NCBI RefSeq assembly: GCF_024508235.1
Contig: NZ_CP101943.1
Span: forward strand, 310,001 to 374,000
Source: Halococcus qingdaonensis
Lineage (GTDB): Archaea; Halobacteriota; Halobacteria; Halobacteriales; Halococcaceae
Direction: 5' to 3'
Length of the DNA: 64,000 bases
The notes below the pieces were generated by a model. It was given only the letters and a program-made list of their open reading frames with translations. It ran no database searches and was not told the origin of the DNA. Each line of letters opens with the position of its first letter. Positions within the stretch are counted from its first letter, which is position 1. Made by a program: the position numbers and the translations under genes. Positions 10,454 to 49,768 of the stretch are shown here, in pieces.

Positions 10454-12126
10454 GTCTGGAACGACCGACCGATCGAACCGACGCCGTCGGCGTCACCGAA
10501 GAGGGACTCGACTACGACGCGCTCGCCGATCTGCTCGGCGACAGCGTGGTGAGCCGTGAACAGCACCACCACACGGAGGCCTTCACCATCCGGCCCGACG
10601 AGGTCCAGGACGTGCTGTTCGCGCTGCGTGATCAGGCAGGCTTCGATCACTGCTCGAACGTCACTGCCCAGGAGTACGAAAACCGCTTCGAGACGGTCTA
10701 CAACCTGAAGAAATACGTCGATCCCACGCAGGAGCTCTCCGTCGTCGTGCCGGCGTCGAAGGACAACCCCGTGAGCCAGAGCGCGGAGCCGGTCTACCGG
10801 ACCGCCGACTGGCACGAGCGCGAGGCCTACGATCTGGTCGGCATCCAGTACGAGGGCCATCCCGACATGCGTCGGATCCTCCTGCCCGAGACGTGGAAAG
10901 GCCACCCGATGGGGCTCGACTACAACCAGGAGAAGCCCCAGATCGTCACGCTCGAAGCGCACGCCAACCCGCTCGAAGACGACGAGCACGATGCCGGTGC
11001 GGACACGATGTATCTGAACATCGGCCCACACCACCCGGCGACACACGGCGTGCTCCACATCGAGACGGTGCTCGACGGCGAGCAGGTCGCCCACGTCGAG
11101 CCCGACATCGGCTATCTCCACCGCTGTGAGGAGCAGATGGCACAGCAGGGCACCTACCGCCACGAGATCATGCCCTATCCCGATCGCTGGGACTACGTCT
11201 CGGCCGGTATCCTGAACGAGTGGGCGTACGCCCGTACCGCCGAGGAACTGACCGACCTCGACGTACCCGACTACGCACAGGTCATCCGGACGATGAGCGC
11301 CGAGCTCTGCCGGATCGCCGCGCACATGCTCGCGGTCGGCACGTTCGCGCTCGACGTTTACGGCGAGTTCACCGCGACGTTCATGTACGCGTTCCGCGAC
11401 CGCGAGGTCGTCGAGAACATCCTTGAAGATCTGACGGGCCAGCGACTGATGTTCAACTATCTCCGGCTCGGTGGCGTGGCGTGGGACCTGCCCGAACCGC
11501 GCGAGGATTTCTTCGAGAAGATCCGGGACTTCCTCGACGGGCTCCCCCACAAGCTCGACGAGTACCACGACCTGCTGACCTCGAACGAGATCTTCCAGCT
11601 GCGCTGTGCGAACACCGGCGTGCTCGACGCCGAGACGGCCAAACAGTACGGTGCGACCGGCCCCGTCGCCCGCGCGTCGGGCGTCGACTACGACATCCGG
11701 CGCGACGACCCCTACGGCTACTACCCCGAACTCGACTGGGACGTCGTGACCGCCGAGGAGGGCGACAACTACGCGCGCGTGCTCTGTCGGCTCCAGGAGG
11801 TCGAGGAGTCCGCACGCATCATCGACCAGTGTGTCGACCTGCTCGAAGACTGGCCGGAAGACGACCGCGAGATCCAGTCGAACGTGCCCCGGACGCTCCG
11901 TCCGGACGACGATGCGGAGATCTACCGCGCCGTCGAGGGCGCGAAGGGTGAACTCGGCATCTACATCCGGAGCGACGGTACCGACAAGCCGGCCCGGTTC
12001 AAGATCCGCAGTCCGGCGTTCTCGAACCTGCAGACGCTGCCGGAGCTCGCCGTCGGCGAGTACGTGCCGGACCTGATCGCGTCGCTCGCGAGCCTCGATA
12101 TCGTCCTCGGTGAGGTCGATCGATGA
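10450..12126 (+). CDS. nuoCD: Fused complex I subunit C/D (operon copy)
   Basis: This 558-residue fusion has a NuoC domain (about 1-160, with YRTADWHEREAYDLVGI and LPETWKGHPM) and a NuoD domain (about 190-558). NuoD forms much of the quinone pocket. The pocket His lies in NIGPHHPATHGVLHIE, and the pocket tyrosine is Tyr249 in PDRWDYVSAGILNEW. RLGGVAWDLP and the C-terminal ASLDIVLGEVDR are present. It sits in the operon between nuoB and nuoH with 4-bp overlaps. A highly similar paralogue lies at 41278-42930. Confidence 0.97.
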   Translation: MSLERPTDRTDAVGVTEEGLDYDALADLLGDSVVSREQHHHTEAFTIRPDEVQDVLFALRDQAGFDHCSNVTAQEYENRFETVYNLKKYVDPTQELSVVVPASKDNPVSQSAEPVYRTADWHEREAYDLVGIQYEGHPDMRRILLPETWKGHPMGLDYNQEKPQIVTLEAHANPLEDDEHDAGADTMYLNIGPHHPATHGVLHIETVLDGEQVAHVEPDIGYLHRCEEQMAQQGTYRHEIMPYPDRWDYVSAGILNEWAYARTAEELTDLDVPDYAQVIRTMSAELCRIAAHMLAVGTFALDVYGEFTATFMYAFRDREVVENILEDLTGQRLMFNYLRLGGVAWDLPEPREDFFEKIRDFLDGLPHKLDEYHDLLTSNEIFQLRCANTGVLDAETAKQYGATGPVARASGVDYDIRRDDPYGYYPELDWDVVTAEEGDNYARVLCRLQEVEESARIIDQCVDLLEDWPEDDREIQSNVPRTLRPDDDAEIYRAVEGAKGELGIYIRSDGTDKPARFKIRSPAFSNLQTLPELAVGEYVPDLIASLASLDIVLGEVDR

Positions 12127-15068: not shown

Positions 15069-16334
15069 CTACTCGAGCGCGCTCGCGGCCCGGATCACGG
15101 CGCGCTCGCCGAAGGCCGGGCCGACGAACTGCGCGCCGACGGGCAGACCGTCAGCAGTGCCGGCCGGCACCGAGATCGCCGGCAGGTCGGCGAGGTTCAC
15201 GGGGACGGTGTTGGCGTCCATGAGGTAGTGCTGGAGCGGGTCTTCCGGACTCTCGCCGAGTTTCGGCGGCAGAACGGGCATCGTCGGCGATGCGAGGACG
15301 TCCGCTTGCTCGAAGGCGGCATCGAACTCCTGCTTGATCCACGCGCGCGTGTCCTGAGCCTTCTCGTAGTATTTGTCGTGATAGCCAGCCGATAGCGCGT
15401 AGGTGCCGAGCAGGACCCGCCGTTTCACCTCGGAGCCGAACCCCGCTTCGCGCGCTCGGGCGAACGCGTCGTTCCAGTCGCCGTCGAACCCGCCCGAGAT
15501 CCCGTAGCGGACGCCGTCGAAGCGCGCGAGGTTCGAGGAGGCCTCGGACATGGCGATGACGTAGTACGCCCGCACGGCGTGGGTGAGCGAGTCGAGTTCG
15601 ATCTCTCGGATCTCCGCCCCTCTCTCTTCGAGCTCCGCGATGCGCTCCTCGAAGACCGCCGCGACGCGCTCGTCGGCCCCATCGACGAGATCGGTGAGAA
15701 CGCCGATCGTCGTCCCGTCGATATCGCCGTCGGCGGCACTCGCGTAGTCCGTGTCCGCACCCTCTGAGCGCGTCGTCGCGTCGCGCTCGTCCGGGCCGGC
15801 GATGATGTCGAGCAGGGAAGCGGCCCCTTCAACCGTGGGTGCGAGCGGGCCGACCTGTTCGAGCGAGTTGGCGTAGGCGACGAGCCCGTACCGCGAGACC
15901 AGCCCGTAGGTCGGTTTGATGCCGACGACGCCGCAGAAGGCGGCCGGACAGCGCACCGAGCCACCCGTATCGGTGCCGAGCGCGAGATCGGCCTCTCCGG
16001 CGGCGACGGCGGCTGCACTGCCGCCCGAGGAGCCACCCGGCACGCGCTCCTCGTCGACGGGGTTCGTCGTCGGGCCGAAGTGTGAGCTCTCGGTCGTGGT
16101 TCCCATCCCGAACTCGTCCATGTTCGTCTTCCCGACGATCGTCGCTCCCGCTCGCTTGAGGCGCTCGATCACGGTCGCGTCGTAGGGCGGGACGTACTCG
16201 GCGAGCATCGCCGAGCCGCAGGTCGTTCGCGTTCCGTCCGTGCTGATGTTGTCCTTGACCGCGATCCGCTGGCCGTCGAGCGGACCGTCGGCGTCGCCGT
16301 CGATCTCCGTCCGGGTGATGAAGGCGTCGCTCAT
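15069..16334 (-). CDS. gatA: Asp/Glu-tRNA amidotransferase subunit A
   Basis: This 421-residue amidase supplies ammonia from Gln for amidation of misacylated Asp-tRNA(Asn) (and Glu-tRNA). The Ser-cis-Ser-Lys triad is visible as RIAVKDNIS and PGGSSGGSAAAVAAG, followed by LGTDTGGSVRCPAAFCG. The ATG at 16334 overlaps the gatC stop by four bases; the frame is open further upstream but that would run through gatC. No gatB is present in the window. Confidence 0.95.
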   Translation of the reverse strand: MSDAFITRTEIDGDADGPLDGQRIAVKDNISTDGTRTTCGSAMLAEYVPPYDATVIERLKRAGATIVGKTNMDEFGMGTTTESSHFGPTTNPVDEERVPGGSSGGSAAAVAAGEADLALGTDTGGSVRCPAAFCGVVGIKPTYGLVSRYGLVAYANSLEQVGPLAPTVEGAASLLDIIAGPDERDATTRSEGADTDYASAADGDIDGTTIGVLTDLVDGADERVAAVFEERIAELEERGAEIREIELDSLTHAVRAYYVIAMSEASSNLARFDGVRYGISGGFDGDWNDAFARAREAGFGSEVKRRVLLGTYALSAGYHDKYYEKAQDTRAWIKQEFDAAFEQADVLASPTMPVLPPKLGESPEDPLQHYLMDANTVPVNLADLPAISVPAGTADGLPVGAQFVGPAFGERAVIRAASALE

Positions 16335-16609
16335 CCGACCGGCGGCCCCTCGAAGTAGCCGTCCTCGGTTTCGGGGGCGTTTCGAAGCGCCTCGTCCTGC
16401 GAGAGACTTTCGCGTGCCTCGTCGGTCCGCAGGACGTTGACGAGCTCCGGCTCGGACTCGATTTCCGGAACCTCGTCGAGCGTCTCGAAGTAGTCGAGCA
16501 CGTCGGCGAACTGCGCGGCGAACGCCTCGGCTTCGTCCTCGTCGAGGTCGACCCGCGCGAGGTCGGCGACGTGGGCCACCGTCGCCGGGTCGACGCTCGC
16601 ATCGCTCAT
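16331..16609 (-). CDS. gatC: Asp/Glu-tRNA amidotransferase subunit C
   Basis: This 92-residue small subunit stabilises GatA-GatB. It shows the typical VAHVADLARVDLDEDEAEAF start and a C-terminal RNAPETEDGYFEGPPVG, close to the conserved DxxxxGYFxVP. It is co-transcribed with, and overlaps, gatA. Confidence 0.95.
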   Translation of the reverse strand: MSDASVDPATVAHVADLARVDLDEDEAEAFAAQFADVLDYFETLDEVPEIESEPELVNVLRTDEARESLSQDEALRNAPETEDGYFEGPPVG

Positions 16610-17209: not shown

Positions 17210-17969
17210 ATGACCCCACGAGAATGGGAGCTGGAAAAAAAATATACTTTACCTTGGCGCATTGTCAATGCTTTTCATTTCATCAATGGCAGCTGTTTTT
17301 ATTTTCACCTCAATAGTAGAGTATACTTCGCCGATCATTGTCTATTTCATCTCAAAGTATGGAGTCTTGTCTGTACTATTTTTTCTTTCTATACCATCAC
17401 TCCTCGCTATAGCAGTTGGGTTGTATGTGGAGCCTACAGCTATTGACCAACCGTCTCAGAGAATACAAACTACTCACCCAAATAAAGAATTTAGAGCAAT
17501 CCGTAAAGAAGCGCGAAGCACTCTTGATAATCAAATTGACGCTATTAGAGATGTAAAAAATGATTGTGTCAAGATAATTCGGCTAAATCTAATTATAGCA
17601 AGCGTAGTATCTGCTGGATTTTCAGTACTCGCACGTTCTAGGTCTGATACAGTCGTAAATTTAGCTACGAGTATATATTCGAAAGCAGGTGTTGTCGCAT
17701 GGGGATTGTCAATAGTTGTAGCTTTAGTTGGGTATACTATCGTAACGTATTCTGGCGGAATTAATACGAATACAATTGACAATCTCCATGATAGAAGGCA
17801 TACATATACTATGTTTCAGATTTTAGTAGTCGATGAGTATTATCGGTCTCTGTCACAGAATGACAAAAACATTCAAACAGGGATAGCAACTGTAGCAATG
17901 TCGATGTATTTTTCGATAATTTCGATATTATTATTCATCGTGGGAATAATGAACTCCTCATTTGTATAG
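17210..17969 (+). CDS. AT-rich multi-spanning membrane protein with probable frameshift
   Basis: As read, the main frame runs from a TTG at 17262 (ATG 17268) to 17969 and gives about 235 residues. A better N-terminus starts at ATG 17210 (MTPREWELEK) in another frame. Removing one A from the A8 run at 17235-17242 joins the frames and yields MTPREWELEKNILYLGALSM leading straight into the first helix. The joined product of about 253 residues has five predicted helices (roughly 11-33, 45-70, 116-134, 150-172, 218-240) and a polar loop at 72-112. Base composition is far more AT-rich than its neighbours, suggesting acquisition. Family not recognised. Confidence 0.6.
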
Positions 17970-27812: not shown

Positions 27813-28436
27813 ATGAGTTCCGTGAGCGCGCTGGCCCAGCGACTCGCTGTGGTCGCCGGCTTCGAGAACCCACGGACGAGCCTGGAGCAGTACCGGACGC
27901 CGCCGGGGCTGGCGGCCAGGCTGGTCCACGACGCCGATCTGCAGGGCGACATCGAGGGACGGTTCGTCGTCGATCTCGGAACGGGGACGGGGATGCTCGC
28001 GCTTGCGGCCGCGCTCCGTGGGCCGCGCGGCGTGGTGGGTGTCGATATCGACCCCGATCCGCTCTCGACGGCGCGCGACAACGAGGGGCGGGTCGGCACG
28101 GCCGCCGACATCTCGTGGCTGCGCGCCGACGCGACCGACGCGCCGCTCGACACGGATGGCGAAACGACCGTCGTGATGAACCCGCCGTTCGGCGCGCAAG
28201 CGGGCAACGAACACGCCGATCGCGCGTTCCTCGCGACGGCCGCCCGCCTGGGCGACGTCTCCTACTCGGTCCACAACGCTGGCAGCCAGGAGTTCGTCGC
28301 ATCGTTCGCCGCCGACAACGGCGGGACGGTCATGCGCTCGTTTCGCGCCGAACTCGATCTCCCCCGACAGTTCGACTTCCACGACGAGGACTCCCACACC
28401 GTCGAGACCGAGATTTTTCGCATCGAGTGGGCCTAG
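27813..28436 (+). CDS. METTL5-like adenine-N6 methyltransferase
   Basis: This 207-residue Rossmann methyltransferase has the SAM loop FVVDLGTGTGMLALAA, VVGVDIDPD, and the catalytic motif TVVMNPPFGAQAGNEHADRAFL. The NPPF motif and ENPRTSLEQYRTPPGLAA N-terminus match the archaeal and eukaryotic METTL5 family, which methylates an adenine in small-subunit rRNA. It is divergent from the esterase and convergent with the transporter, overlapping its stop by four bases. Confidence 0.9.
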   Translation: MSSVSALAQRLAVVAGFENPRTSLEQYRTPPGLAARLVHDADLQGDIEGRFVVDLGTGTGMLALAAALRGPRGVVGVDIDPDPLSTARDNEGRVGTAADISWLRADATDAPLDTDGETTVVMNPPFGAQAGNEHADRAFLATAARLGDVSYSVHNAGSQEFVASFAADNGGTVMRSFRAELDLPRQFDFHDEDSHTVETEIFRIEWA

Positions 28437-32463: not shown

Positions 32464-33279
32464 TCAGCGCCGCACCGGAACCCCGTGTTCGTCGAGGTAT
32501 TCCTTCACGTCCTCGATCGAGTATTCGTCGAAATGGAAGATCGAGGCGGCGAGCGCCGCGTCGGCATTCGCCGCGGTGAACACCTCCTCCATGTCGGCAG
32601 GGCCGCCACAGCCGGAGGAGGCGATGACCGGCGTCGAGACGCTCTCACAGACCGCGCGCGTCAGCGGGACGTCGTAGCCCTCCTTCGTGCCGTCGGCGTC
32701 GATCGAGTTGACGAACAGCTCGCCGGCTCCTCGACTTTGGGCCTCGCGCGCCCACTCGACCACGTCGATACCCGTGCCCTCGCGGCCGCCCTTCACCGTG
32801 CACTCGAACCAGCAGGATTCGCCGTCAGTCGTAACGAAATGTTCGCCCTCCTCGTCGTAGCGACGGCGTGCATCGACCGAGATGACGATACACTGGCTAC
32901 CGAAGCTCTCGGCACCCTCGGTGATGAGTGCCGGTCGATCGAGCGCGCCCGTGTTGATCGAGACCTTGTCCGCGCCCGCCCGCAGGGTCTCCCTGATGTC
33001 CGCGCGCGTGCGGATGCCGCCGCCCACGGTCAGGGGGATGAACACCTCGTCGGCGACGCGCGAGACGACGTCGAGCATCGTCTCGCGGCCGTCGGCCGAG
33101 GCAGTGATGTCGAGGAAGACGAACTCGTCGGCACCCGCCTCGTTGTACCGGCGGGCCATCTCGACGGGATCGCCCGTGTGTTCGAGGTTCTCGAAGTTCA
33201 CGCCGGTGTAGACCGCCGGCTCGCCGTCGTCGTTGAGATCGACGTCGATACAGGGGATAACGCGCTTGGTGAGTGTCAT
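32464..33279 (-). CDS. hisF: Imidazole glycerol phosphate synthase cyclase subunit
   Basis: This 271-residue TIM barrel of histidine synthesis cyclises PRFAR with ammonia from HisH. It begins [20 protein letters not shown] with the catalytic Asp, followed by [29 protein letters not shown], and [15 protein letters not shown] with the second catalytic Asp, then [12 protein letters not shown]. The ATG at 33279 is the family start; an earlier one at 33300 adds seven residues. Other his genes are not in the window. Confidence 0.96.
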
Positions 33280-33422
33280 ATACTGTTGACACCGTGCCAC
33301 TCATTCTTAACTCGAAGGCTTTGGCGCTACATATGATGTATGGCAGCTTCCGCGGAGACCGCATATGAGCAAACACAAATCGTGAATTCGCCACTGATGG
33401 AAAGACCATCCATGCATTGATT

Positions 33423-34994
33423 ATGACAGGCTCACTCGGATATAATATGCCAAAATATGCCACTCTTGACGATATAGACGAGGAAACACGATATAGTATC
33501 CTTACCGCCTTGCATGAAAACGAGCGGTTTTTGGGTGGTATTACGGCGACGGACGCTTTCCGAGCAAGCCAACAAACCCGTTTGATCCTGACTGATCAGC
33601 GTCTCCTCACGTTCAGCCAGAAAAATGCTACAAGCCCTCTTTCCGAAATTGATCGGGCAAATATCTCACACGCCGACTTCGAAGAAGGAATCCTGAGTCG
33701 AACACTGACTATCGTAGGAACGGACGGACTCACTCAAGAATGGGATCTCGATATCAACGGTGCAGGCGAATTTGCCGAGGCAGTCCTGAGTGGTGGTGTT
33801 CAGCGCGTCTATGATGACGATTTCCAAATCGAATCACACTCTCACATCAATGGGGTAAACGACTCGAAAACTACTCCGGGCTTCAACAATGGACCCGGCG
33901 GCAATACGGAACGGAATCACGGACGGGACAGAGAACCATCGGCAACTGAAAGGGGTCGGAGCACACAGGAACCCGTTACTGACAGTAGCACGGATTACCA
34001 GCACCCAGCCATCGCTGATCTTTCACAATCCGAGTTGCTTTCCGAGCTTCAGTCGATGGATAACTACGATTTCGAGTACTTCGTCGCCGATATCTGGGAG
34101 CAGATGGGATGGGAGACAGAAGTCTCGCAAGCATCGGTGGACGCTGGAATCGATGTGACCGCTACGAAATCGAACCCCTACCCAGAGAAGAACATAATCC
34201 AGGCCAAACGGTACGGTGAAAACACGAGTGTTGGCGGTCCGGACATACAACAATACGCGAGTCTCAAACAACAGGTCTCAGGTACTGATTCGGTAATCGT
34301 CGTTACCACGGGATCGTTCACCAACGCTGCTGAAAAACGTGCTACCGATCTCAACGTCAAAACCGTTGATGGAGACGGAATTGTAAGCATGGTTGACGAT
34401 CTCGATGCGCGCAATCTCGTCACGGATTATATTGATATTCCTCTTGAATCATCTGCCGAATCGGAATTCGATTCCGAACTCGGGTCTACGCCGATGGGCG
34501 ATCACGGAACAGACTCTCCTGATACGGCTGCTATGGGACATGCGAGTCCTGCACCGGATCACGAACTGGAGGCTATTTCCTCCGACGAAGGCGATTCGAC
34601 GATCCTTCACGTTGCCGACCGAATCGTGGGTGCCACAAATCAGACGACTGATCAGGAATCATCTGCCCTCGAAACGAGGGATCAAACGAGAACGGCCGAT
34701 CAGACGGGAGCTGACGATGTAATCGCCAACTCGCAATCAGCCGGAAACTGGCACTATGGTGTCATTGGGCTCTCTGCAATCAGTATCCTCGGACTTTTCG
34801 CGGGAGTTGCTGATGTTGCTGGCTTCTCCATTCTGTTACTGCTTCCCATCACGTATCTTGATATCCGAGATGTACGTACAGTGACTACCGAGTGGCAACC
34901 GAAAACGTGGCTGTATCTTCTCGGAATGTTCTTCGTGGTGTTCATTGCTGCGCCGCTCTATCTCTACCGACGCAAAACAGTTGTCGGACTGTAA
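33423..34994 (+). CDS. PH-like / Mrr-type nuclease / membrane-anchor fusion
   Basis: This protein of about 523 residues has three parts. Residues about 25-120 resemble a bacterial PH domain (ENERFLGGITATDAF, RLILTDQRLLTFSQ). After a Ser/Asn-rich linker, about 200-330 form an Mrr-type PD-(D/E)xK fold with Glu218 in YDFEYFVADIWEQMGW, Asp244 in DAGIDVTAT and Gln260-Ala-Lys262 in IIQAKRYG. A long acidic linker leads to two C-terminal helices and a basic tail. The gene is AT-richer than its surroundings, suggesting transfer. Start is uncertain (ATG 33423 or 33447). Confidence 0.82.
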   Translation: MTGSLGYNMPKYATLDDIDEETRYSILTALHENERFLGGITATDAFRASQQTRLILTDQRLLTFSQKNATSPLSEIDRANISHADFEEGILSRTLTIVGTDGLTQEWDLDINGAGEFAEAVLSGGVQRVYDDDFQIESHSHINGVNDSKTTPGFNNGPGGNTERNHGRDREPSATERGRSTQEPVTDSSTDYQHPAIADLSQSELLSELQSMDNYDFEYFVADIWEQMGWETEVSQASVDAGIDVTATKSNPYPEKNIIQAKRYGENTSVGGPDIQQYASLKQQVSGTDSVIVVTTGSFTNAAEKRATDLNVKTVDGDGIVSMVDDLDARNLVTDYIDIPLESSAESEFDSELGSTPMGDHGTDSPDTAAMGHASPAPDHELEAISSDEGDSTILHVADRIVGATNQTTDQESSALETRDQTRTADQTGADDVIANSQSAGNWHYGVIGLSAISILGLFAGVADVAGFSILLLLPITYLDIRDVRTVTTEWQPKTWLYLLGMFFVVFIAAPLYLYRRKTVVGL

Positions 34995-35070
34995 TGAATG
35001 CACTGAGGTTCCGTGAGCTACTCTTCGGCACATTCGAATCATTTTATACGCTCCTCATCAATTTGCGACC

Positions 35071-40344: not shown

Positions 40345-40504
40345 TGGCCGGTTTACCGCCTCCTGCCGTTTAGTCTCGGCGTTTTGACGAGCGACGAGAC
40401 GATGGCAACGCGGGGAACGGCTCCGCCGTGATCCCGTTTTGTGCGAACGGAGCGACACCGTCCCCATCCACAGCTCTCGTCGGTCCGTTCACGTCCACCA
40501 CCTC

Positions 40505-41164
40505 TTACCCCTCGCCGACGACATGGTGAACGAGCGCGGCTTCGGCCTTCCGGAGATGCTCGGCGGCCGTCCCGGGCGCACAGTCCAACTCCTGGGCGAC
40601 GTCGGCGACCGTGGCCTCCCGCGGTGTCTCGTAATAGCCGCGTTCGAGCGCGATCGTCAGTGCCTCGGACTGGCGCTCGCTCAGGGCGCTCGCGGCATCC
40701 ATCCGCCCCGCGTCGTACTGGCCGGCGCGTCGAACGTCGACGTCGACGCCGGGCGGGGCCTCGTCGAGCGCGCGCTGGAGCGATGCGGCCGTCCCGACGA
40801 CGGTGAGGCCGATGGTGCGGTCGGTGCGGTAATCGATCGGTGGCATCACGACGATGCTGCCGTGCGTGAAGGCGTCGGTCAGTCGCCGCGTTCCGGCGTC
40901 GAGTCGCTCGCGCGCGTAGACGTAGAACCCGTCGCCGTCGGTCGACACCACCTCGTGCTCCAGGACCGTCGCGACGTCAGCGAGCGTCTCCGCGTAGGGT
41001 TCGGGCGGCCCCTCGGCGTAGAATATCATCGTGTTCGTCTCGCCGACGGCGGGGTTCCACTGGAGGAGGCGATAGGACTCGTATCCCTCGTGGCTGGCGA
41101 CGAACTCGTGCATCGGATGGATGATCCCTTCGCTCTGGCCGAGGCGCAGTCGCAGATATTTCAT
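40505..41164 (-). CDS. Bacterio-opsin activator-like HTH regulator
   Basis: This 219-residue regulator has an N-terminal sensor-like domain (to about 155). A C-terminal HTH_10 follows: LSERQSEALTIALERGYYET, then TVADVAQELDCAPGTAAEHLRKAEAAL. The Bat/HTH_10 family controls bacteriorhodopsin and many redox or light-related haloarchaeal genes. It is transcribed divergently from the second nuoCD, 113 bp away, with a palindrome at its own promoter, suggesting that it regulates itself and possibly nuoCD. Confidence 0.9.
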   Translation of the reverse strand: MKYLRLRLGQSEGIIHPMHEFVASHEGYESYRLLQWNPAVGETNTMIFYAEGPPEPYAETLADVATVLEHEVVSTDGDGFYVYARERLDAGTRRLTDAFTHGSIVVMPPIDYRTDRTIGLTVVGTAASLQRALDEAPPGVDVDVRRAGQYDAGRMDAASALSERQSEALTIALERGYYETPREATVADVAQELDCAPGTAAEHLRKAEAALVHHVVGEG

Positions 41165-41186
41165 GACGGGTGTTGTCGTCCTGGAA

Positions 41187-41194
41187 CTTAAACT
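41187..41194 (-). promoter_or_regulatory. TATA-like element of the HTH regulator gene
   Basis: On the minus strand AGTTTAAG lies 23-30 bp ahead of the ATG at 41164, the leaderless spacing. The 16-bp palindrome ends two bases upstream of it, over the presumed BRE. Confidence 0.5.
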
Positions 41195-41195
41195 A

Positions 41196-41211
41196 GCCTC
41201 GCTAGCGAGGC
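41196..41211. promoter_or_regulatory. 16-bp perfect palindrome between the HTH regulator and nuoCD2 (operator candidate)
   Basis: GCCTCGCTAGCGAGGC is fully self-complementary and lies where TFB would bind at the regulator promoter, and 67 bp from the nuoCD2 ATG. A dimeric HTH protein bound here would interfere with its own transcription. The identity of the bound protein is inference. Confidence 0.6.
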
Positions 41212-41249
41212 AGAACGCGCTCGATGCTGGCGATCGATCGTCCGGTATC

Positions 41250-41267
41250 GTCGGCCGGCAAGCCGAC
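41250..41267. promoter_or_regulatory. 6-bp inverted repeat before nuoCD2
   Basis: GTCGGC and GCCGAC flank six bases and end 10 bp ahead of the ATG at 41278. It overlaps the expected transcript start, and could be a repressor site or a 5' hairpin. Confidence 0.3.
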
Positions 41268-41277
41268 AGTTCACAGC

Positions 41278-42930
41278 ATGAGCTCGCAGTCACCCATCGA
41301 ACCGCGGAACGACGATCTCGACGAACCGCTCGCGGAACTGCTCTCCCCGTACACCGTCGCCCGCGACGACCACCGCAACGCACCGGGATTCGTCGTGCGA
41401 CCCGACGAGGTCCAGGACGTCCTGTTCACGCTGCGCGACGAGGCGGGCTTCGATCACTGTTCGAACGTCACCGCTCAGGAGTACGAAGACCGCTTCGAGA
41501 GCATCTATCACCTGAAGAAATACGCCGATCCGACCGCCGAAGTAAGCGTCATCGTCCCCACACCGCGGGACGATCCCGTGAGCCAGAGCGCGGAGCCGGT
41601 CTACCGAACCGCCGACTGGCACGAGCGCGAGGCCTACGATCTGGTTGGTATCGAGTACGAGGACCATCCGGATCTACGCCGGATCCTCCTGCCCGAGACG
41701 TGGCAGGGCCATCCGATGGGGCTGGAGTACAACCAGGAGAAACCCCAGATCGTCACGCTCGAAGCGCACGCCAACCCGCTCGAAGACGACCAACACGACG
41801 CCGGTTCGGATACGATGTTCCTGAACATCGGCCCACACCACCCGGCGACCCACGGCGTGCTCCATATCGAGACGGTGCTCGACGGCGAACAGGTCGCCGC
41901 CGTCGATCCGGATCCGGGCTATCTCCATCGCTGCGAGGAACAGCTGTGTCAGCAAGGGACCTACCGCCACGAGATCATGCCCTACCCGGACCGCTGGGAC
42001 TACCTTGGCGGACAGATTCTGAACGAGTGGGCGTACGCCCGTACCGCCGAGGAGCTCGCGGATCTCGACGTACCCGAATACGCACAGCTCATCCGCACGA
42101 TGAGCGGCGAACTCTCGCGAATCCTCGCCCACATGCTCGCGATCGGGACGTTCGCGCTCGACGTCTACGGGGAGTTCACCGCGACCTTCATGTACGCTCT
42201 CCGCGACCGCGAGATCGTCCAGGGAATCCTCGAAGACCTGACGGGCCAGCGGCTGATGTTCAACTACCTCCGGCTCGGTGGCGTGGCCTGGGACCTGCCC
42301 GAACCGCGCGCAGCGTTTTTCACGAAGATCCGTGATTTCCTGAACGAACTCCCACACAAACTCGACGAGTATCACGATCTGCTCACGACGAACGAGATCT
42401 TCCAGCTTCGATGCGTCGATACCGGGGTCCTTGACGCCGAGACGGCGAAACAGTACGGCTGCACCGGCCCCGTCGCCCGCGCCTCGGGCGTCGACTACGA
42501 TCTGCGCCGTGACGATCCCTACGGCTACTACCCCGAACTCGATTGGGACGTCGTGACTGCCGAGGAGGGCGACAACTATGCACGCGTGCTCTGTCGGCTC
42601 CAGGAGATCGAGCAGTCCGCACGTATCATCGATCAGTGTGTGGATCTGCTCGAAGATTGGCCGACAGACGACCGCGAGATCCAGTCGAACGTGCCCCGGA
42701 CGCTGCGCCCGGACGACGCCGAGCTCTATCGCGCCGTCGAGGGCGCGAAGGGCGAGCTCGGTATCTACATCCGGAGCGACGGCACCGACACACCGGCCAG
42801 ATTCAAGATCCGCAGTCCGTGTTTTGCGAACCTCCACGCGCTGGAAGAGATGGCCGTCGGCGAGTACGTCCCGGATCTCATCGCGTCGCTCGCGAGCCTC
42901 GATATCGTTCTCGGCGAGGTCGATCGCTGA
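41278..42930 (+). CDS. Second, stand-alone NuoCD (paralogue)
   Basis: This 550-residue protein is collinear with the operon NuoCD across the whole chain, with long identical stretches such as TEEGDNYARVLCRL-type segments and the same C-terminus ASLDIVLGEVDR. The quinone-site His (NIGPHHPATHG) and Tyr (Tyr242 in DRWDYLGGQILNEW) are kept. Residues right after the Tyr change from VSAG to LGGQ. Other changes cluster at DPDPGYLHRCEEQLCQQ and SGELSRILAH. The N-terminal ~35 residues are unrelated. No other nuo gene is adjacent; a Bat-type regulator is divergent. Confidence 0.95.
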   Translation: MSSQSPIEPRNDDLDEPLAELLSPYTVARDDHRNAPGFVVRPDEVQDVLFTLRDEAGFDHCSNVTAQEYEDRFESIYHLKKYADPTAEVSVIVPTPRDDPVSQSAEPVYRTADWHEREAYDLVGIEYEDHPDLRRILLPETWQGHPMGLEYNQEKPQIVTLEAHANPLEDDQHDAGSDTMFLNIGPHHPATHGVLHIETVLDGEQVAAVDPDPGYLHRCEEQLCQQGTYRHEIMPYPDRWDYLGGQILNEWAYARTAEELADLDVPEYAQLIRTMSGELSRILAHMLAIGTFALDVYGEFTATFMYALRDREIVQGILEDLTGQRLMFNYLRLGGVAWDLPEPRAAFFTKIRDFLNELPHKLDEYHDLLTTNEIFQLRCVDTGVLDAETAKQYGCTGPVARASGVDYDLRRDDPYGYYPELDWDVVTAEEGDNYARVLCRLQEIEQSARIIDQCVDLLEDWPTDDREIQSNVPRTLRPDDAELYRAVEGAKGELGIYIRSDGTDTPARFKIRSPCFANLHALEEMAVGEYVPDLIASLASLDIVLGEVDR

Positions 42931-42989
42931 CCACGCGTCCCGGTCCGATACGCGGGCAATTGAAACCCGCCGCGTGTCTACGCCGATCC

Positions 42990-48548: not shown

Positions 48549-49376
48549 TCAGTCGTCGCCGAGGCCGAGTCCGGGATACCAGCGATCGGCACCGGCCTCG
48601 CGCGCCCGCTCGTCCATCCGGGCGAGCAGCGCCGTCGCGAGACTCGCCGTCTCGGCCGCCCGGTTCTCGCCTTCGGTGCGGAACTCGCCGGTCGTCCGGT
48701 TGGCATATACTGTGCAGATCGCGCCCGCCCGGAGCCCGTAGAGGTTCGCGAGACTGAGGATCGCGCTCGATTCCATCTCGAAGTTGAGCACGCCGGCCTC
48801 GCGCAGCTCCTCGAAGCGCTCCTCGCTGCCGGCGGCCTCGAACCCCTCGAAGCCCGGCCGGCTCTGCCCTGCGTAGAAACTGTCGGTACTCGCGGTCACG
48901 CCGACGTGGTAGTTGTGGCCCAGTTCCTCAGCTGCGGCGACCAGCGCCGCCACGACGCGGTCGTCGGCGCTCGCCGGGAACTCCTCGCGGACGTACTCGT
49001 CGCTGGTTCCCTCCTGTCTGACGGCCCCCGAAGTGATGACGAGATCGCCGACGTCCATCTCGGGCTGGATCGCCCCGCAGGAGCCGACCCGGAGGAACGT
49101 CTCGCAGCCGACGCGTGCGAGCTCCTCGACGGCGATCGCCGCCGAGGGGCTACCGATACCCGTCGAGGTCGTGCTGATCGGCGCGCCGTCGTACGCGCCC
49201 GTCGCGGTGCGGAACTCGCGGTGTTCGGCGACGATCTCCGATTCGTCCCACTGGTTCGTGATCTTCTCGATGCGCTCGGGATCGCCCGGTAGCAACACGG
49301 TGTCGGCGACGTCGTCGGGAGCGACCCCGAGGTGATACTGCGTTTCGTCGTTCGGATCCTCGCTATCGCCGGTCAT
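48549..49376 (-). CDS. udp: Uridine phosphorylase
   Basis: This 275-residue nucleoside phosphorylase has YHLGVAPDDVADTVLLPGDPER, GIGSPSAAIAVEEL, LRVGSCGAIQPEMDVGDLV, and VLNFEMESSAILSLANLYG in the base-binding region. This family cleaves uridine to uracil and ribose-1-phosphate. ATG 49376 overlaps the cdd stop by four bases, pairing cytidine deamination with uridine cleavage. Confidence 0.94.
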   Translation of the reverse strand: MTGDSEDPNDETQYHLGVAPDDVADTVLLPGDPERIEKITNQWDESEIVAEHREFRTATGAYDGAPISTTSTGIGSPSAAIAVEELARVGCETFLRVGSCGAIQPEMDVGDLVITSGAVRQEGTSDEYVREEFPASADDRVVAALVAAAEELGHNYHVGVTASTDSFYAGQSRPGFEGFEAAGSEERFEELREAGVLNFEMESSAILSLANLYGLRAGAICTVYANRTTGEFRTEGENRAAETASLATALLARMDERAREAGADRWYPGLGLGDD

Positions 49377-49768
49377 CGTCCTAACGTATCGGCCGAGATC
49401 GCGTCCGGCAGCAGCTCGCCGAGTCGGTACTCGCTCCTGGATTCGCCCTCGTCGCAGAGCACCCGGAGGTCGTCGTCGCAGAACTCCGAGAGGCTCTGGC
49501 GGCACATCCCGCAGGGAAGGACGCCGTCGCGCTCGGAGGAGGCGACCGCGAGGCGCGCGAAGTCGTGGTGGCCGTTCTTGACCGCTTCGGCGAGCGCGAC
49601 CTCCTCGGCGTGGAGGCTGTTCGAGTAGTTGGCGTTCTCGATGTTGCAGCCGAGAAAGACCGTTCCGTCCGTCGTTTCGAGCGCTGCCCCGACTCGGTAG
49701 TTGGAGTAGGGGACGTGTGCGCTTTCCGTCGCGTCACGGGCGCGGGCGATGAGTTCGTCGTCGTCCAT
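49373..49768 (-). CDS. cdd: Cytidine deaminase
   Basis: This 131-residue zinc enzyme converts cytidine to uridine. It shows VPYSNYRVGAALETTDGTVFLG, the catalytic H-A-E motif in SLHAEEVALAEAV, and the P-C-x2-C zinc motif LPCGMCRQSLSEF. It is upstream of and coupled to udp, forming a pyrimidine salvage pair. Confidence 0.96.
   Translation of the reverse strand: MDDDELIARARDATESAHVPYSNYRVGAALETTDGTVFLGCNIENANYSNSLHAEEVALAEAVKNGHHDFARLAVASSERDGVLPCGMCRQSLSEFCDDDLRVLCDEGESRSEYRLGELLPDAISADTLGR

Follow-up and report, generated by a model that had tools for sequence, protein, structure and literature searches.

The window analysed here, a stretch of 64,000 nucleotides of Halococcus qingdaonensis contig NZ_CP101943.1 (positions 310,001 to 374,000), contains a gene whose product joins an N-terminal PH-like part, an Mrr-type nuclease domain and a C-terminal membrane anchor, with a low-complexity linker on either side of the nuclease (Table 1). 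Its neighbours in the window are hisF, a DUF7550 gene and a flavin oxidoreductase-like gene. The original prediction had described the gene as AT-richer, and its composition bears this out, with a GC content of 51% and a GC3 of 0.51 against 67-71% and 0.86-0.89 in the neighbours. The open frame also offers starts at TTG 33417 and ATG 33423, but ATG 33447 is probably the true one on alignment, because residue 9, which it encodes, is the first residue in both full-length homologues (one from Halobonum, the other from a 276-kb Haladaptatus plasmid). The copy in Halococcus thailandensis is 99% identical at the protein level. A search of NCBIfam with the protein returned no family, a sequence search of solved structures with the whole protein gave chance matches only, and a terminator hairpin looked for 3' of the gene is unsupported.

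Table 1. Features of the PH-Mrr-membrane locus and of the related second-site gene (window coordinates unless a locus is named)
Feature	Position	Strand	Basis or remark
Insert of about 1.8 kb holding the PH-Mrr-membrane gene	33271..35065		Alignment with the empty-site relatives ends at 33270 and starts again at 35066
PH-Mrr-membrane gene	33423..34994	+	Open frame, 523 aa; likely start ATG 33447
PH-like (bPH_3) domain, residues ~9-125	33447..33797	+	Weak in the query; 8/10 of the aligned family match
Low-complexity linker 1, residues ~130-200	33810..34022	+	pLDDT mostly <50; poorly conserved
Mrr_cat PD-(D/E)xK nuclease, residues 209-323	34047..34391	+	Pfam 2.2e-24; model; folds MspJI, AspBHI, AF1548
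Putative catalytic Glu218	34074..34076	+	E in 38/38
Asp240-x-Gly242-x-Asp244	34140..34154	+	Each 38/38
Gln260-x-Lys262	34200..34208	+	Each 38/38
Low-complexity linker 2, residues ~340-440	34440..34742	+	pLDDT mostly <50; dN/dS ~0.97
Predicted C-terminal membrane anchor, 2-3 helices, end PLYLYRRKTVVGL	34749..34982	+	Hydropathy, model, motifs in homologues
294-aa Mrr+membrane gene of congeners G254 and G210	L080 15278-16250; L081 about 15420-16391	reverse complement	

The nuclease domain is the most firmly assigned part of the protein, since Mrr_cat (PF04471) matches at 86.3 bits against a cut-off of 21 (E 2.2e-24). A PD-(D/E)xK site had been proposed at Glu218, Asp244 and Gln260-x-Lys262, and these positions are correct: together with Asp240 and Gly242 they do not vary across 38 distinct haloarchaeal Mrr domains, a non-random set gathered by similarity to the query, in which adjacent positions such as 219 do vary. 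Unconserved catalytic residues, which the original prediction had named as one refuting observation, were therefore not seen in this set. Structure prediction, which had been suggested as a check, succeeded for one part of the protein and not for another; the full-length model is confident in the nuclease only (pLDDT mostly 70-92), while the PH part modelled alone reaches a pLDDT of 39. The solved structures that best match the nuclease fold are MspJI and AspBHI, then AF1548 and EndoMS, with weaker matches to Can2 and Cap4, and the overall TM-scores are low because the nuclease part alone is ordered in the model. In PADLOC the best match is the single-gene candidate PDC-S02 (6.6e-20), which covers residues 184-324 and profile positions 167-306 of 334 and leaves the N- and C-terminal parts unmatched; the weaker matches, mREase_IV and ZorD, likewise lie over the Mrr domain. 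The Mrr_N winged helix gave no Pfam match at E<=1 and the PH-like domain stands in its place, so that the protein is without the N-terminal winged helix of classical Mrr.

The assignment of the N-terminal part as PH-like, also made in the original prediction, is firm in the family and weak in the query taken singly. The bPH_3 profile (PF14470) scores 18.9 bits in the query, under the curated cut-off of 23, with an E-value of 0.018 at full length and 0.0021 for the PH part alone. It is matched, however, by eight of the ten members of the aligned family of this part (best E 1.3e-7), a family that also includes, in other haloarchaea, proteins some 120 residues long that stand alone and a single PH-membrane-TPR-like protein. 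The N-terminal part thus appears PH-like, weakly in the query and firmly in its relatives. Modelled alone, the PH part is rich in strands and has a terminal helix, and the model is poor because only two sequences went into it; the fold assignment therefore rests on sequence families. Profile searches with the PH part also weakly matched the yeast Vps36 PH/GLUE domain (0.5 and 0.0097), which we take as a lead only.

At the other end of the protein, the membrane anchor that had been predicted is again indicated by hydropathy and by the model. Hydrophobic segments occupy residues 457-475 and 498-516 in the 525-residue reading from TTG, and the low-confidence model places three C-terminal helices at 443-456, 462-482 and 495-520; the anchor would thus have two clear hydrophobic segments, to which a third helix should probably be added. 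At least two hydrophobic segments follow the nuclease in 32 of the 38 relatives, and the features best kept among homologues are W-x-P-x-x-W-L-Y and P-x-Y-x-Y. The positively charged tail would fall on opposite sides of the membrane in the two-helix and the three-helix readings.

The whole gene lies in an insert that is shared with H. thailandensis and is replaced by about 92 bp in two congeneric genomes (G254 and G210), where hisF is directly followed by the DUF7550 gene. A transposon or integrative element was considered and rejected, as the insertion showed neither terminal repeats nor a target duplication nor a tRNA; no integrase lies beside the gene. Between this genome and H. thailandensis dS is 0.025 for the PH-Mrr-membrane gene and 0.15-0.20 for hisF, the DUF7550 gene and the flavin oxidoreductase-like gene, and the stretch of low divergence coincides with the insert. 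Its arrival, or its exchange, is therefore later than the split of the two lineages, and its GC3 of 0.51 beside about 0.87 in the neighbours agrees with a recent arrival. The dN/dS between the two Halococcus copies, calculated on few changes, is 0 in the PH part, 0.07 in the Mrr domain and about 0.97 in linker 2. A second site gives the reciprocal picture: G254 and G210 carry there a 294-residue Mrr+membrane gene, flanked by what we take to be uridine phosphorylase-like and cytidine deaminase-like genes, and the site is empty here (window 49376-49380), with H. thailandensis also continuous across it. Sister species thus have two different genes of this kind, at two single-gene sites that lie 14 kb from each other.

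The window holds other irregular stretches. At 17262-17969 on the forward strand, in a stretch of 41% GC, lies a gene for a 235-residue multi-helix membrane protein with no Pfam or PADLOC match, which looks like another single-gene insertion. A block at 40400-42960 with an HVO_0513_N/HTH_10 regulator and a NuoCD-like gene has similar DNA at 10587-12126; it is present in G254 and absent at this place from H. thailandensis and G210.

The gene had been called solitary, with no methyltransferase partner, and this holds: no DNA methyltransferase adjoins it, and the nearest methyltransferase-like frame (27813-28436), 5 kb off, matches MTS/PrmA-type domains. A defence-island context was looked for in this genome and not found. 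No defence genes adjoin the Halobonum homologue either, which presumably sits between ABC-transporter-like genes and msrA; in both genomes the genes alongside have the look of ordinary metabolic ones. On the Haladaptatus plasmid the gene directly upstream (L085 7265-11797) encodes a 1510-residue protein with PDDEXK_1 and an AAA_11/AAA_12 helicase, matching the MkoA and DpdJ models; it may be a defence partner of the plasmid PH-Mrr-membrane gene or a mere neighbour.

The distribution of the gene is patchy as well as young, and the gene probably moves horizontally. This genome has no other Mrr_cat gene, and among ten congeneric genomes four lack any. Of 394 haloarchaeal genomes, 257 have some relative of the query, 15 have the query-type PH-like part, and only three have this part fused to Mrr with a membrane anchor, to which one plasmid is added; with empty sites in sister species as well, this is far from the universal, housekeeping-like distribution that would have spoken against the original prediction. 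Isolated phages gave no match, and the viral contigs searched gave a single Mrr relative and none for PH. The former, taken to lie in a tailed provirus, is an Mrr+membrane gene near tail-like and HNH genes (L084 7953-8804, found also in Halarchaeum rubridurum) and is possibly exclusion cargo.

In the relatives, the N-terminal part that accompanies the Mrr-anchor core is PH-like, TPR-like, a zinc ribbon or short and basic. Some relatives carry long C-terminal repeat-like regions, which we take, judging by their letters and with no family match, to be possible beta-propellers. Other Halococcus loci also fuse bPH_3 to Mrr_cat. L057 has the PH-Mrr-membrane order and differs from the query in an added zinc-ribbon-like stretch and a divergent PH part (bPH_3 4.5e-7), whereas in L058 (883-2535) and L059 (751-2400) Mrr_cat lies between two divergent bPH_3 domains (~1e-16) and there are no membrane helices. 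In another family, one frame of 608 residues in G231 has both the PH and the Mrr match and would be a further fusion. Going by these matches, the PH-Mrr fusion is not a one-off in haloarchaea. In one further PH-like protein (L045 1486-2466) a membrane helix is combined with a TPR-like region of the type that precedes Mrr in L003 and L004; modules of this sort thus also occur outside the nucleases.

Among known systems, one that is close by description is the Haloferax volcanii Mrr (HVO_0682), a type IV restriction endonuclease that acts on GATC-methylated DNA (PMC7776575, PMC7521656), encoded by a gene of 1005 bp (PMC5867850) and expressed as a soluble protein (PMC7521656); Mrr homologues are sporadically distributed in Halobacteria (PMC6471742). 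Compared by description, both proteins are haloarchaeal, Mrr-type and solitary, with no methyltransferase partner, but no PH-like module or membrane anchor is reported for HVO_0682, whereas the query has a PH-like module and a predicted anchor. A functional screen in E. coli yielded a putative membrane-anchored DUF4041 defence protein with a DNA binding/cleavage domain and a defence protein with Mrr fused to a beta-propeller (PMC9519451). Like the query, these appear to be single proteins that combine a DNA-cleavage domain with a membrane anchor or a repeat domain; unlike it they are bacterial, and the passages describing them mention no PH-like domain (PMC9519451). Of solved structures, those of the modification-dependent endonucleases MspJI and AspBHI come closest in fold to the nuclease part, and the best defence model, the single-gene PDC-S02, corresponds to the nuclease region only. 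To our knowledge the recognition domain of MspJI and AspBHI is not PH-like and these enzymes are not membrane-bound. The PH-Mrr-membrane order was not found in the open-licence papers searched, a scope too narrow to prove it undescribed. The parts of the protein are known; their order is unusual.

We read the gene, with confidence a little above even, as a membrane-tethered, type IV-like barrier to DNA, solitary and horizontally moving. The original interpretation is in this way supported in part, for the solitary and predicted membrane-anchored nuclease. Its Mrr-type PD-(D/E)xK domain would cut DNA, which we infer because its catalytic residues are intact and unvarying. The predicted C-terminal helices would keep the protein at the membrane, on its cytoplasmic side, the place at which incoming viral, plasmid or conjugative DNA should first appear, and the PH-like module may serve recognition or control by binding a protein, a lipid or a DNA-associated ligand, or by joining monomers. 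With no methyltransferase, discrimination would depend either on the control module or on a feature of the DNA, namely modified bases as in the cases of Haloferax Mrr and MspJI. This reading is favoured because the Mrr_cat match goes together with a fold match to modification-dependent enzymes, because PDC-S02 is matched and the catalytic set is kept throughout, and because empty sites in G254 and G210 accompany the low dS of the gene. The second single-gene Mrr+membrane site, empty here, argues in the same direction, as do the PDDEXK_1-helicase adjoining the plasmid copy and the relative near a tail gene in a viral contig. By analogy, HVO_0682 (PMC7776575, PMC7521656) and what is described of the E. 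coli screen (PMC9519451) make such a barrier plausible. Against it stand the lack of adjoining defence genes in this genome and in Halobonum, the missing Mrr_N and the restriction of homology with defence models to the nuclease; moreover, a membrane anchor is unusual among type IV enzymes and could have another role.

The main rival is an abortive effector, whose PH-like part would sense infection or membrane damage and release indiscriminate DNA cleavage leading to cell death or arrest. The exchange of modules around the nuclease (PH, TPR-like, zinc ribbon, C-terminal repeat region) does recall a sensor-effector design, Can2 and Cap4, among the weaker fold matches, are ligand-activated nucleases, and the lack of a methyltransferase would fit. 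However, the closest folds are those of modification-dependent restriction enzymes, and there is no second gene able to sense or make a signal and no sign of a neutralising partner, so we consider this rival distinctly the less likely of the two, though one to be taken seriously. The viral-contig relative, the plasmid copies in several haloarchaea and the young single-gene insertion would also suit a provirus or plasmid nuclease that excludes competitors and has been stranded in the chromosome here. We think this improbable, as the locus has no tRNA site, terminal repeats or integrase, and purifying selection on the PH and Mrr parts, although measured on few changes, suggests host use.

A housekeeping role at the membrane, in which the nuclease would take part in DNA uptake, in repair or in the processing of chromosomes, would agree with the predicted membrane location and with the lack of defence neighbours. 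It was rejected on the scattered distribution, as sister species have the empty site and four of ten congeners are devoid of Mrr_cat, and composition and dS show a recent arrival; its probability is accordingly very small. Slighter still is the chance of a non-catalytic domain used for DNA binding only, like the NACHT-associated inactive REase family PF22722, which the protein matches below threshold, given that all the catalytic residues are present and unvarying.

If the type IV-like barrier does restrict DNA from the membrane, haloarchaea place such nucleases at the site of entry and vary their control modules, which would account for part of the gene-transfer barrier in these organisms. 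The empty sites and the dS values suggest that genes of this kind spread singly outside defence islands, so that island-based surveys would miss them. More tentatively, and as a conjecture that we would not yet back, the haloarchaea may possess a combinatorial family of one-gene membrane-tethered nucleases, with a constant Mrr-anchor core and interchangeable sensors, each entering ordinary intergenic sites singly; if true, it would constitute an archaeal layer of immunity at the membrane surface, separate from both classical restriction and defence islands.
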